From positions 1 to 34,541 of the IMG/VR virus record IMGVR_UViG_3300037247_001844: 34,541 nt of DNA; one strand, 5' to 3'. The stretch is from a virus. Of the stretch, positions 4,347 to 32,711 are shown in pieces (within the stretch, counting starts at the first letter, position 1; every line of letters starts with the position of its first letter). A program made the position numbers and the translations under genes. The notes beneath the pieces are model-generated. The model made no database searches and was not told the DNA's origin. It was given only the letters and a program-made list of their open reading frames with translations.

Positions 4347-5255
4347 TTATTGTTGGCTTTGTTTTACACAGGCTTGAATCTCAAGATCATGAATCATATG
4401 CTTAAACATATACTCATAATTAGAAAGTTTCTTTTGCAAAGCCCATTTGGATAAAATAAACAATCCAGCGTTAAAATATCCCCGGAATAATTGCCCAGGC
4501 AACCGGCCGGCACCATAAAATTTGTTGTATTCATACGACAATATAGTAAATCTCCGGGATATTCTAATGGTTATTGATGGGTTTTGAGAATCCACACTGT
4601 TATTTTTGGATTTATTCTTCAATTCATACATCTTATCCGACAAACCATCCTTAGTAAAAGACCGGCATTTCTTCAATAAATTAGGCGAAACACACCATTT
4701 CCGTGATTTTGTATATTCAGGAGTCTTTTTACTCCATACCTGGTGTAGACGGTTCCATAACAATACACCGTATTTATCGTTTCTAGGCCGCCCACAGACG
4801 ATTGCAGACACGATATCGACCGTAGAGGCACTATTGAAGTCCAAGAGCTCTAACGTGACGTTGAAGCGCTTGTCCATTGATATCTGACGTTGGCCCGAAT
4901 AGAGCTCAATCGTGGATTCAATTAAATCAAAATTGATATTTTTCTGCTTACATAAGGCAATCAGACCAATACTGACAAGACCACGTATCATATCGGCCTC
5001 AGACATTTTCATAGCCTCCATACGGAACGTAGACATCAAAGTATATGCAATGATACCAATTCGGGCGTGGATCTTCACAGGGCGGAACCTGTCGACTGTG
5101 GAAAGGGCTGAGAGATCATAGAATGACTCCGGAGACATCTTGTTTTCTATACCGAGATATTGAGTCCGGGTGGTCTGGAACAATATATCGTCATCGATCA
5201 TACTACCATCAACCGATCCAATGAGTAGATCCTCATGTAAATCTTCATTTATCAT
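4347..5255 (-). CDS. Unrecognised 302-aa protein of the replication module
   Basis: ATG at 5255 is chosen because GGAGG lies 8 nt upstream; a TTG five codons earlier would overlap that site. The protein starts acidic (MINEDLHEDLLIGSVDGS) and is then largely helical, with a basic C-terminal half (KSRKWCVSPNLLKKC, NPSITIRISRRFTIL, YNKFYGAGRLPGQLF). No nucleotide-binding or nuclease motif is visible. Its place between a nuclease/SSB module and an iteron-like repeat cluster makes a DNA-binding or replication-initiation role possible, but this is inference from context only. Confidence 0.7.
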   Translation of the reverse strand: MINEDLHEDLLIGSVDGSMIDDDILFQTTRTQYLGIENKMSPESFYDLSALSTVDRFRPVKIHARIGIIAYTLMSTFRMEAMKMSEADMIRGLVSIGLIALCKQKNINFDLIESTIELYSGQRQISMDKRFNVTLELLDFNSASTVDIVSAIVCGRPRNDKYGVLLWNRLHQVWSKKTPEYTKSRKWCVSPNLLKKCRSFTKDGLSDKMYELKNKSKNNSVDSQNPSITIRISRRFTILSYEYNKFYGAGRLPGQLFRGYFNAGLFILSKWALQKKLSNYEYMFKHMIHDLEIQACVKQSQQ

Positions 5256-5275
5256 AAAAACAGCCTCCAAATAAA

Positions 5276-28599: not shown

Positions 28600-28694
28600 A
28601 ATAGCAAGGAAATAATGTTATAGCTTTGACCAAATTGATCTAATAGGAATATAAGAAAAACGACTAATTTCAAACGCAAAATAAAAACACACAC

Positions 28695-28756
28695 AAAACA
28701 ACATAAAAAAACACATAAAAAAAAATAATATTTTTTTAATTTTTTTTTAAGAAAAA
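28695..28756. other. A- and T-rich stretch beside the array
   Basis: Long A and T runs (A8, T7, T9) in about 50 bp with almost no G or C, immediately next to the repeat array. Such a stretch could be an easily melted DNA-unwinding element or a spacer. No gene is visible. Confidence 0.5.
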
Positions 28757-29545
28757 TAATGATAATCCGTTCCGCTAAGCAATTAAATTGCGAATGATAA
28801 TCCGTTTGGATTCAAAGTTTTAAGCCGCGCAAAAAAATCCGACCTCCTACAAAAAAACTTATACACAAAGTAATGAGAGAGCCGAATGATAATCCCGCAC
28901 AGGAAAGGCCAGCAACCGCACAAAAAAAATTCTGCGAGTAGAAGCTATATATAAACATGTCGAGAAGTAAAGCACGAATGATAATCCCTGCCAGAGCAAC
29001 CGGCCGAAGACAGATTCGCAAAATCCAGCGCAAGGAGCAAGACAGAGCAAAGCACTTAAAAACGCATAATGAAAATCCTATACAGAAATTCGCTATATGA
29101 GCCGAAAGCTATAATCGAATCCGTATATAAGAAGGCATATAAGGAAAGATGAATCCATAATGAAAATCCTATATAAGCTTTATTAAAAAAAGCGTAGGAA
29201 AATCCGTATATAAGAAGGCATATAAGGATATAGAAATAGAGAAACGTATAATGAAAATCTCAAAGAAGTAAATTATTAAAAAGAGTTAAAGTGAATGTAT
29301 TACATACAGCGAAAGAGTTGTCTATATAAAAAAGAATTATAATAATGAAAATCTTATAAATATAAATAAAAAATTAAAATTAAATACATAGCGAAGCTAT
29401 ACAAAAAGAAAAGAAATTTTTTTTAGAAAAATTTGTAATAATGAAAATCTTGTTGAATAGAAAAATTTTTTGCGCTTCGCTCAAATAAATAATAAGATAT
29501 TTTCTAATAGTAATAATGAAAATACTCTCTTTATAATGAAAATGC
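28757..29545 (+). repeat. Phased array of AATGATAATCC/AATGAAAATCT motifs, mostly 91-96 bp apart
   Basis: Eleven motif copies start at 28758, 28793, 28885, 28977, 29068, 29159, 29250, 29344, 29440, 29515 and 29535. Successive spacings are 35, 92, 92, 91, 91, 91, 94, 96, 75 and 20 bp. The first four read AATGATAATCC, the next two AATGAAAATCC, the next three AATGAAAATCT, the last two are degenerate. Intervening sequences mostly differ, except that two neighbours share a 28-bp identical block. A weaker AATCC or AATTC often recurs 42-50 bp into the unit. Every copy begins a tiny ORF (ATG ATA ATC or ATG AAA ATC; 4-40 codons), without ribosome sites. Confidence 0.85.
29118..29228 (+). repeat. 28-bp perfect direct repeat inside the array
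   Basis: The 28 bases at 29118-29145 (AATCCGTATATAAG then AAGGCATATAAGGA-type end) recur at 29201-29228. The two copies lie in adjacent array units but at different offsets (50 and 42 bases from the unit start), so local duplication with slippage shaped the array. Confidence 0.8.
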
Positions 29546-29554
29546 TAAAGGAAA

Positions 29555-29696
29555 TGGCAAAGTGAAATATATATCCGGCTTTATTAAAAATCATTACGCT
29601 TGCTGTCTGATAATTGCTTATTATCAGACAGAAAGCTAGCCGGATATATATTTCATCCTTCGGATTGACATAACTAATATTATGTCAGCTTTGCCA
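29555..29696. ncRNA. Large multi-branched foldback structure
   Basis: An outer stem TGGCAAAG/CTTTGCCA (29555-29562 with 29689-29696) closes a junction. It holds a perfect 17-bp stem (29564-29580 with 29638-29654, GAAATATATATCCGGCT type) capped by an internal 11-bp hairpin (29603-29613 with 29621-29631, loop TTGCTTA), a small ATCC-TTC-GGAT hairpin (29655-29665), and an 8-bp hairpin TGACATAA/TTATGTCA (29666-29687). All stems are perfect, which is far beyond chance. It could be a structured RNA or, as DNA, a cruciform or single-strand origin or packaging signal. The strand is undetermined. Confidence 0.75.
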
Positions 29697-30150
29697 CAAT
29701 CTTCTATAATTCGCCTTGAATAAAATGAATGAGGCTCAAAAAAAATAGCGGCATTCGTTCATATGTTTTACATATTCACTCATCTCTTTATATATGCCAT
29801 CCCCCACCCCATAGCTACCCCACCCTCTTTATCTTCACCCAGGTCGCTATTTCATCAAATCATTTCTTGGCTTGTCTATCAAAAAGCTTTTTTTGTAGCT
29901 ATCCGGTGTTGTCGGCTAAAAGAAGCCTAGCAGATGCATTTACAAAAAACCATAGCCCGAGTAGCAGCACGTAGCAGATCCATGTAGCAGCCCAAGTGAG
30001 CCAGAAAGCTTAGCATGTAGCCAGCCAAGGCTCAAAGAATACCCACCCACCCGAAAGCTAATCGAGTAGCATCGCACCCAAAAAAGCCACAAAACAGGAA
30101 AATCAATAAACACCGAAAAACATCAAAAAACGTGTTTTTAGGTGTAAAAT
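29697..30150. other. Non-coding stretch with GTAGC repeats
   Basis: No credible gene. GTAGCAG occurs at 29961, 29971 and 29984, with GTAGCCAG and GTAGCATC variants continuing to about 30073, giving a loose cluster of short direct repeats. The upstream part has a C-rich pyrimidine tract (29800-29840). A short ORF at 29729-29974 has Cys/His/Pro-rich low-complexity composition and no ribosome site. Confidence 0.5.
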
Positions 30151-30225: not shown

Positions 30226-30232
30226 AAACTAT

Positions 30233-30270
30233 GGAAAGATTCCCTATATAGGGAAAGATTCCCTATATTT
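30233..30270 (+). promoter_or_regulatory. Tandem 19-bp repeat with CCCTATATAGGG palindrome
   Basis: GGAAAGATTCCCTATAT occurs at 30233 and again at 30252, a 19-bp period. The junction creates a perfect 12-bp palindrome at 30242-30253. It sits between the mini-hairpin row and the rightward promoter, so it is a good operator candidate. Confidence 0.65.
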
Positions 30271-30374: not shown

Positions 30375-30402
30375 TTGACAAACGGTAAGTAAAGCATAGA
30401 CT
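30375..30402 (+). promoter_or_regulatory. Promoter for the rightward structural operon
   Basis: Perfect TTGACA at 30375-30380 and TAGACT at 30397-30402 with 16-bp spacing. The first gene follows with a perfect AGGAGG at 30427-30432. This is the only strong promoter-like sequence before the DUF1320 gene. Confidence 0.5.
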
Positions 30403-30440: not shown

Positions 30441-30896
30441 ATGGGATATAGTACAGATGACGACTTGGATTTATTGTTTCATGACATAGCAACGACACCG
30501 GGATATGCGACGGGGGAAAGTGATTTTGCGAAAGAAATCGCATTAGCTACGGATTGGGTGAATGATAATTTAAGGGACCGGTATGAGGTACCGTTTTCAA
30601 GTGCGTCAAAAATGGTGGTACTTGCGGAGGCGAATTATGCCGTGGGAATGATATTAAAATCTAAATCGACTACGGCTGGATTTGAGTTTGCGACATATAA
30701 TCCGTTCTTTCAAGAAGCGAAGACATTGATAAATAAATTGAGGTTATTTGCAACGGGACCAGATGGTTCGGTGGAAAAAGATGAGATTCAGAACACTAAT
30801 ACCGGAGTTGAGCCGAAAGCTGCGGTTTCGAGATTTGATCGTGATGGGAATCGTATTAATCCTGGATTAGCTGATCGTAAACTAGACTATTATTGA
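30441..30896 (+). CDS. Mu gp36-like protein (DUF1320), head-tail completion, 151 aa
   Basis: Perfect AGGAGG Shine-Dalgarno. ATDWVNDNLRDRYEVPFSSA and LAEANYAVGMILKSKS are the DUF1320 pattern (A...VD..L..RY..P, A...A...L). In Mu-like phages this gene follows the major capsid gene and the product is thought to act at head completion. Here it lies on the opposite strand 12 kb away and starts a second structural operon. Confidence 0.82.
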   Translation: MGYSTDDDLDLLFHDIATTPGYATGESDFAKEIALATDWVNDNLRDRYEVPFSSASKMVVLAEANYAVGMILKSKSTTAGFEFATYNPFFQEAKTLINKLRLFATGPDGSVEKDEIQNTNTGVEPKAAVSRFDRDGNRINPGLADRKLDYY

Positions 30897-30902
30897 TTCA
30901 AT

Positions 30903-31787
30903 ATGGTAAAACCATTAACAAAGGCGGAGATTATAACATCAGGTGATATTGGTAATCTATCCACCAGTTTAATTAACAAGCAATTCGTACATTCCTTACC
31001 GACTCAATTATTACTCCGATCGCATAATCAAATAGAACTTCAACACCTTAAAAACCCCCAAGACAAAAGACTACAAATCGCACATACGAATTTATTCTTG
31101 GAAATGGAATTAAGAGAAATTGAACACTTCGATACTGATCCGAATTTCTTCACTCCGAGTAATACAAAATGGCCTTTTGAACTAGAATTTGATGAAGAAT
31201 TTAGAATTGAAAGATTTAAAAAGAAAATTAAGAAAATCAATAACAATAAAAAAACTCCGACTTCTCCAAAAGATAAAACACCGAAACAAAAACGATTTAA
31301 GAAATTAGATGATTCGCGAAAAATTAAAATTCGCAGAGGTTCAAGGAAAAAAAGAGGAAGGAGAAGATTATTCAAAGAAAATGAACTAATATCAAAAACC
31401 ACAAAAAGAAAAACAACAAATAGAGGACATTTACTAGAACGACATTCGGGGATAATTGAATTTACAATTCCAAGTGAAGAAACCAAAAGAATATTTACAT
31501 TAGCGGCAGAAAATGTATGGGATATTCAACCAGATACAGGCAACGTTCCAATTGCAAACGGACCACGACCCAAAAAAGAACACTGGTATAAGAATTTATT
31601 TACAATGATATTTATCGGTGCATATCAAGCCTTTATGCAGAAAACATTAATTGCTTTTTATCGGAGGCAAGTTCCCCCCTGGGCGATTCAGGAATGGGAT
31701 ATACAATTGACTGCAACTGACGCATTTAGTAATTCTCAGACAGTTGAAAAGAGAAATTTTATTCAAACCCAAATTGATCCTAATTAA
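30903..31787 (+). CDS. Unrecognised structural-region protein with very basic centre, 294 aa
   Basis: A helical N-terminal third, then an extremely Lys/Arg-rich centre (FKKKIKKINNNKKTPTSPKD, and RRGSRKKRGRRRLFKE) and a C-terminal domain with WYKNLFTMIFIGAYQAFMQK and PPWAIQEWDIQLTATDAFS. The C-terminal half looks folded and might be a head-tail joining protein. The basic centre could contact DNA or RNA. Follows DUF1320 by 6 bases without its own clear ribosome site. Confidence 0.6.
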   Translation: MVKPLTKAEIITSGDIGNLSTSLINKQFVHSLPTQLLLRSHNQIELQHLKNPQDKRLQIAHTNLFLEMELREIEHFDTDPNFFTPSNTKWPFELEFDEEFRIERFKKKIKKINNNKKTPTSPKDKTPKQKRFKKLDDSRKIKIRRGSRKKRGRRRLFKENELISKTTKRKTTNRGHLLERHSGIIEFTIPSEETKRIFTLAAENVWDIQPDTGNVPIANGPRPKKEHWYKNLFTMIFIGAYQAFMQKTLIAFYRRQVPPWAIQEWDIQLTATDAFSNSQTVEKRNFIQTQIDPN

Positions 31788-31790
31788 ATC

Positions 31791-32711
31791 ATGACTGTAG
31801 CCACTAACTTTACCGCAGACATTACTTCTGGTGCAGTCGGTACAATTGTTAATTTTACAGATACATCAACTGGCTCACCTGACAATTGGCTTTGGGATTT
31901 CGGTGACGGCCACACCTCTGAGGATCAAAACCCAACACACCAGTATTTAAAAAGTGGATCATTTACAGTCACCCTTACCGCTTTTATTTCAACAGGAACA
32001 ACAGTAGTCGGAGTAACCAGCAGAGTAAGTGAAATAAAAAGTGCCAGTGCAAGTAATAACCAAGACGCATATGACGCATTCATTGCCGCTTCATTTAGTG
32101 GATCTGGTACGGAATTTGGACAATACTCACTACAGCAAACAGCCCCAGGACCAAATGCCTTTGGCTATGCAGCACAAAATTCAATACACACAGTAGATCT
32201 TACCGCCCACAGTTCGGGAATAGCAAAATTTGAAATGTTTTTCAATGATGCAGTTGACAATCCAGATTCAACTATCCTGTTTGGAAGCGGAAAAAGACTA
32301 TCAGCGCCAGCAACTAATATTTGGACTTTCATTGAAGATGTATCAGGCGATTTGGGTGAAATCATGTCGAATTCGGTAACCGATCTCAATTTCCCCCAAT
32401 TTGCTTCACCTGGAAATGGATTCCGAACAGGCTGGATAGTTACTACTTTTAGAGTTACAATACATACTGCAGCAGATAACGACACAAAAATAAAAACAGA
32501 TTTTATTTCAATCTCAGGACCAGTCGCAGATTTTTCCGCTACACCAAGAAAAAAGAAAAATTCATTAACTTCAGTATTTACAAATTTATCATCCGATGCA
32601 ATTACATATTCCTGGAAACGCCGCCCATCTGGTATCAAAGCGGATTACGTAGAATTCTCAACCGATGAAAACCCAAGCGAAGGATTTGACATAACAAACC
32701 CAACACCATAA
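31791..32711 (+). CDS. PKD-domain protein, 306 aa
   Basis: Residues about 5-85 are a PKD domain (VNFTDTSTGSPDNWLWDFGD, GHTSEDQNPTHQYLKSGSFT, VTLTAF). The middle is a beta-sandwich-like region with HTVDLTAHSSGIAKFEMFFN. A second, poor PKD-like start (VADFSATPRKKKNSLTSVFT, ISYSWKRRPSG) is cut short at the end. PKD domains in phages usually belong to tail or adsorption proteins that touch sugars or other proteins. No signal peptide. Start codon 3 bases after the preceding stop. Confidence 0.8.
   Translation: MTVATNFTADITSGAVGTIVNFTDTSTGSPDNWLWDFGDGHTSEDQNPTHQYLKSGSFTVTLTAFISTGTTVVGVTSRVSEIKSASASNNQDAYDAFIAASFSGSGTEFGQYSLQQTAPGPNAFGYAAQNSIHTVDLTAHSSGIAKFEMFFNDAVDNPDSTILFGSGKRLSAPATNIWTFIEDVSGDLGEIMSNSVTDLNFPQFASPGNGFRTGWIVTTFRVTIHTAADNDTKIKTDFISISGPVADFSATPRKKKNSLTSVFTNLSSDAITYSWKRRPSGIKADYVEFSTDENPSEGFDITNPTP

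Follow-up and report, generated by a model that had tools for sequence, protein, structure and literature searches.

What does a row of short, regularly spaced direct repeats do in the main control region of a phage genome? The window, i.e. the whole stretch of 34,541 bases analysed here, is in its entirety a viral contig, and scans of its proteins against Pfam and PHROGs identified a PHROG 1005 capsid, a large terminase and a Mu-type portal, along with a Sak4-like protein, an ERCC4 nuclease and a DinG-like helicase. The array is located in a 1.7-kb noncoding stretch, flanked by a leftward gene block that ends at 28694 and a rightward block that starts at 30441, and is covered by no listed gene. 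Among the proteins scanned, which comprise part of the open reading frames, neither an initiator or Rep nor ParA/ParB was recognised. The protein beside the array had been labelled DUF2786 in the preliminary description, a label that is not borne out, as no Pfam match was obtained at E<=0.001 and the weak PHROG match is to a family of unknown function.

The array and its spacing

Eleven direct copies of AATGATAATCC, or of stepwise variants thereof, are distributed over positions 28758-29545 with one polarity (Table 1). The copy-to-copy spacings are, in order, 35, 92, 92, 91, 91, 91, 94, 96, 75 and 20 bp, confirming the eleven phased copies with seven regular spacings (the second to the eighth of these) that had been described initially, with a start one base early. 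The consensus is an asymmetric 11-bp AATGRWAATCY, which in a minus-strand RNA would give GGAUUAYCAUU motifs. The observation also survives shuffling: the seven regular spacings compare with a maximum of three in 300 dinucleotide-preserving shuffles, none of which came close. Outside the array, the exact AATGATAATCC is found in the 34.5 kb only at 2530, within the helicase gene, where it belongs to a palindromic pair, AGATTATCATT-T-AATGATAATCC (2518-2540), encoding GLSLNDNL; this pair is probably a coincidence.

Comparing the units column by column, strong conservation is confined to the motif, and the spacers are mutually unrelated, save for a 37-bp block that recurs, at a shifted position, in units 4 and 5. 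Neighbouring motif copies are most alike, as local duplication would give, and the stepwise drift of the motif, together with a spacer GC content that falls from 0.51 to 0.13 along the array, agrees with what was first reported. The weaker half-unit layer of AATCC/AATTC (AATYC) likewise exceeds chance in the window, its offset among the first five units being 50 once and 42-45 in the remaining four (0/5000 shuffles as good), but it was not seen in the related phage G001 introduced below. The plus strand is purine-rich, reaching 86% in the G001 spacers. Helical phase is missing, the Rayleigh R at 10.5 bp being 0.29 in the window and 0.18 in G001 against a random expectation of about 0.3, and neither strand of the array folds consistently better than shuffles. 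The earlier suggestion of a row of similar small RNAs is disfavoured, since the units have no consistent fold on either strand and no common sequence beyond the motif. Taken together, the array is a real and selected control element, so far undescribed, while its function is a guess.

Counterparts in two related phages

A terminase search of IMG/VR recovered four close contigs. G001 (IMGVR_UViG_3300037247_001712) has a terminase 84% identical to that of the window, and G003 (IMGVR_UViG_3300022902_000074) is a more distant relative. An unbiased scan for phased k-mers detected a homologous array in G001, composed of 12 copies of AATGGTAATCC, one of them T-ending (L104:877-1726), with spacings of 77, 76, 80, 79, 81, 75, 81, 78, 79, 73 and 70 bp, followed by AATGATAATCG 23 bp on. 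None of 300 dinucleotide shuffles matched it, and its spacers are likewise unrelated. The period is 92.4 bp in the window versus 77.2 bp in G001, and the surrounding noncoding stretch measures 1.7 kb versus about 2.6 kb. Both arrays start at the same AT-rich tract, with the motif beginning about 10 bp away, and the G001 array has the same polarity as that of the window with respect to the tract and to the RNA fold described below. The syntenic region of G003, on the other hand, retains the AT tract with a single degenerate ATTGATAATCA 9 bp away, but has no array by any k-mer test. Thus, of the expected conservation in relatives, motif, polarity and flanking architecture are upheld by G001, whereas the period shifts to roughly 77 bp and the array is missing from G003.

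The gene order around the locus is rearranged in G001, where all surrounding genes share a single direction. Relative to the terminase, the counterpart of the 30441-32711 module is inverted in this 84% relative, but it is oriented as in the window in the 71% relative. Considering that the neighbourhood is rearranged and the polarity of array, tract and fold unchanged, the element has kept its own internal order. The operator-like palindrome pairs of the noncoding locus differ per phage, with GGAAAGATTCCC in the window, GTGTCA..TTTGATACA at about L104:2413-2470 and TGACAAAATGTCA at about L012:6680-6745, and would fit different repressor specificities, as expected. The G001 locus moreover holds a perfect 16-bp palindrome, TGTTCCACGTGGAACA (L104:2589-2604), resembling the consensus of chromosomal parS; no such parS-like palindrome is present in the window or in G003. 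It suggests that host ParB may be recruited in G001.

We also considered the unannotated 307-aa protein (window 4347-5270, minus strand; about 302 aa in the preliminary description), which had been put forward as a binder of the array and is conserved in all three phages. It fits this role poorly, with the closest homologue (73-74%) in the array-less G003 and 33-34% identity in the array-bearing G001. Two stretches are plausible by eye as ribbon-helix-helix, an identity we rejected given a model pLDDT of 35, zero PDB matches and a conservation that runs the wrong way.

Table 1. Positions of array, tract, fold and palindromes in the window
Feature	Position	Strand	Remarks
AT-rich tract, A9..T7-AA-T9, adjoining the first motif copy	28716..28750	.	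Matches G001 L104:841-887 (84% including motif) and G003 (80%), same place
Motif copy 1, AATGATAATCC, 35 bp before copy 2	28758..28768	+	Tract-adjacent counterpart in 3/3 phages (G003: degenerate ATTGATAATCA)
Motif copy 2, AATGATAATCC, opens the regular series	28793..28803	+	
Motif copy 3, AATGATAATCC	28885..28895	+	
Motif copy 4, AATGATAATCC	28977..28987	+	
Motif copy 5, AATGAAAATCC	29068..29078	+	
Motif copy 6, AATGAAAATCC	29159..29169	+	
Motif copy 7, AATGAAAATCT	29250..29260	+	
Motif copy 8, AATGAAAATCT	29344..29354	+	
Motif copy 9, AATGAAAATCT, closes the regular series	29440..29450	+	
Motif copies 10 and 11, AATGAAAATAC at 29515 and AATGAAAATGC at 29535, tighter spacing (75, 20)	29515..29545	+	The G001 array likewise closes on a tightly spaced copy (23 bp)
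RNA fold with a four-way junction, built of a closing stem, two hairpins and a long stem that carries an inner hairpin	29551..29700	-	Covariance model match, 149 bits
Operator-like palindromic repeats of 19 bp in tandem, core GGAAAGATTCCC	30230..30267	.	Ahead of the rightward operon

A conserved RNA fold beside the array, and possible readings of the locus

Adjacent to the array, a fold of about 150 nt is common to the three phages, with counterparts of the window fold at L104:2078-2254 (minus strand) in G001 and L012:6975-7122 (plus strand) in G003. Fold z-scores across the three noncoding regions range from -4.5 to -10.6. In the three-sequence alignment, 14 of 42 pairs have changed on both sides, with 0/500 shuffles as good, and 96.8% of the alignment cells pair, a signal that is destroyed by sliding the partners. 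Read on the minus strand, the hand-placed helices contain 4 G-U versus 0 A-C among 161 pairs, a tally in which one G003 arm (stem P4) is contiguous only with a bulge skipped, and the consensus energy is -41.2 kcal/mol on the minus versus -28.8 kcal/mol on the plus strand. It is therefore likely that the RNA fold belongs to the minus strand, as judged from three sequences, which are few. Among the loci searched, the fold pattern and covariance model find only the window, G001 and G003. Rfam gave no match to the fold even at a permissive threshold, GOLLD and ROOL included, and no tRNA was found in the window, eliminating an identity as tRNA or Rfam RNA.

What, then, may the array be for? We tentatively favour a multi-site protein-binding array in a phage replication or maintenance locus that would also make a structured RNA. 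Asymmetric 11-bp sites, set at a roughly fixed length inward from the AT-rich tract, would recruit one protein, of phage or host origin, in many copies; once loaded, this protein would open or mark the tract, and the opposite strand would encode the structured RNA, as for RNA-assisted phage origins. Protein binding, strand opening and a replication or partition role are thus what we infer. Conservation of the motif alone within and between the arrays, among unrelated spacers, is a signature of binding sites. Congruent with this, the copies have a uniform direction and start at a common AT tract in both array phages, and the tract persists with a degenerate motif copy in the array-less G003. 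The size of the noncoding stretch, large for so compact a genome, the perfect parS-like palindrome of the G001 locus and the precedent of RNA-dependent origins in extrachromosomal mycobacterial prophages point the same way. With a recombination/replication set present and no initiator recognised, a cis origin could plausibly rely on a factor that is unrecognised or supplied by the host. Against a binding array, however, the sites are out of helical phase, G003 lacks the array, no ParA/ParB or Rep was recognised among the proteins scanned, the DnaA-box-like TTATACACA occurs once in the window and not in G001, and no parS is present in the window or G003. The initial proposal of an initiator or partition binding array may be right; nothing observed speaks for the packaging signal proposed alongside.

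The strand preference of the fold bears on the main rival reading, somewhat less probable in our view, by which a long noncoding RNA would run leftward and include the array as its 3' part. Such a transcript would start near the operator-like repeats, fold into the four-way junction, continue with GGAUUAYCAUU motifs that stay unstructured, follow one another at about 80-90 nt and bind protein or a partner RNA, and end near the AT tract. The adjoining fold indeed reads best on the minus strand, the window array begins a few bases from it, and an unstructured array with length-set spacing and no helical phase suits a flexible strand. In G001, however, the array lies about 320 bp away from the fold, and the RNA would be antisense to the surrounding genes; G003 has the fold without the array, and the search for a promoter or terminator on the minus strand gave nothing convincing. 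A combined device is conceivable with similar reservation: a noncoding RNA that runs leftward and contains the conserved four-way junction would carry, or work with, short polar sites arrayed like marks on a ruler. This would be a class of control element whose sites are spaced by length rather than helical face, and whose array may come and go around a lasting RNA core.

Titration appears rather improbable. Here, operator-like half-sites would act as a regulatory sponge for a repressor or host regulator, timing the flanking operons, congruent with the location of the array between operons, in a control region that has operator-like palindromes close by, and with its many weak, drifting sites, which suit titration more than a precise machine. 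Nevertheless, titration does not need regular spacing, and the flanking promoters are without the motif, the one good promoter (30375-30402) having zero copies. Least probable is a fossil of tandem duplication, in which a unit of roughly 80-90 bp was copied, the spacers drifted and the motif alone was kept with a functionless period, for although the period differs between the two phages, neighbouring motifs drift stepwise and units 4 and 5 have the 37-bp block, five successive spacings of 91-92 bp round saturated spacers imply selection against indels in the window phage, and motif retention is left unexplained.

Comparison with known systems

No third array was recovered from plasmid and phage DNA searches, from cellular genomes (terminase plus array pattern) or from three array-pattern scans of IMG/VR; similar spacing elsewhere was traced to coding repeats, Fur-box clusters, CRISPR arrays and ordinary tandem repeats. 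The literature, covered in part, yielded no description of such an array. A coding tandem repeat was rejected, since the spacings of 91, 92 and 94 would break a reading frame of three and the array lies outside all listed genes, in contrast to the coding matches L112-L115. Small open reading frames from the ATG of each motif, read by hand, span 4 to 40 codons, and their peptides are not conserved. The motif holds the GATAATC half of the Fur-box consensus GATAATGATAATCATTATC, yet none of the copies has the inverted second half, and the sequence in G001 is GGTAATC, speaking against Fur boxes. Noncoding clusters of palindromic Fur-box-like sites (AATGAGAATCATT..) were seen in the viral-labelled L152, L160, L163, L165 and L072, with L163 forming a 29-bp tandem series.

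The 11-mer is present in CRISPR repeats of L121, L125, L142 and L145, about the number expected by chance in 85k genomes by our own estimate. L145 and L125 are Saprospiraceae MAG contigs whose repeats of about 36 nt (GTTGAAGTGACTTAGGAAATGATAATCCGTTTAGAC type) have as many as 15 nt in common with the initial copies of the array; their spacers have zero matches to these phages. CRISPR arrays, phage solitary repeat units and Racr RNAs (PMC10651486) resemble the array in having short repeats with unrelated DNA between. However, a CRISPR array requires near-identical repeats of about 21-48 bp and spacers of similar length, as opposed to a drifting repeat of 11 nt with spacers of 59-85 nt, and the multi-copy arrangement, with at most 15 nt in common with a CRISPR repeat, is at odds with Racr or a solitary repeat unit. 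With its short drifting repeat and unrelated spacers, the array is neither CRISPR nor an ordinary tandem repeat, as originally stated.

GOLLD and ROOL likewise represent large noncoding phage loci with a conserved, ornate fold, but the present fold lacks an Rfam match and is joined by a short-motif array. If the locus functions as RNA, the short list of large noncoding RNAs of phages, whose functions are mostly unknown, would gain a member with a repetitive tail for binding. Extrachromosomal mycobacterial prophages have RNA-dependent origins (PMC7157519), and share with this locus a noncoding phage setting and, for G001, a parS-like site; their noncoding RNA has a putative counterpart here in the covarying minus-strand fold. 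No parA/parB were on the other hand recognised among the proteins scanned, and the part of that work drawn on describes no such array.

The iteron origins of plasmids and phages also display short asymmetric direct repeats that all point the same way, next to AT-rich DNA within a noncoding control region, and correspondingly 11 (window) and 12 (G001) direct copies flank a conserved AT tract. The spacing of 70-96 bp, the drifting sites and the lack of a recognised cognate Rep among the proteins scanned nonetheless set the array apart, and while plasmid iterons are generally in helical phase (PMC5043065), phasing here is no more than random. The likeliest function is familiar, the layout unfamiliar. 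The comparison of three phages makes AT tract, array and four-way junction each separately testable, and if this is an origin or maintenance locus, length alone would suffice to order polar sites over about 800 bp in phages without a recognised initiator, in contrast to the helical phasing of iterons.
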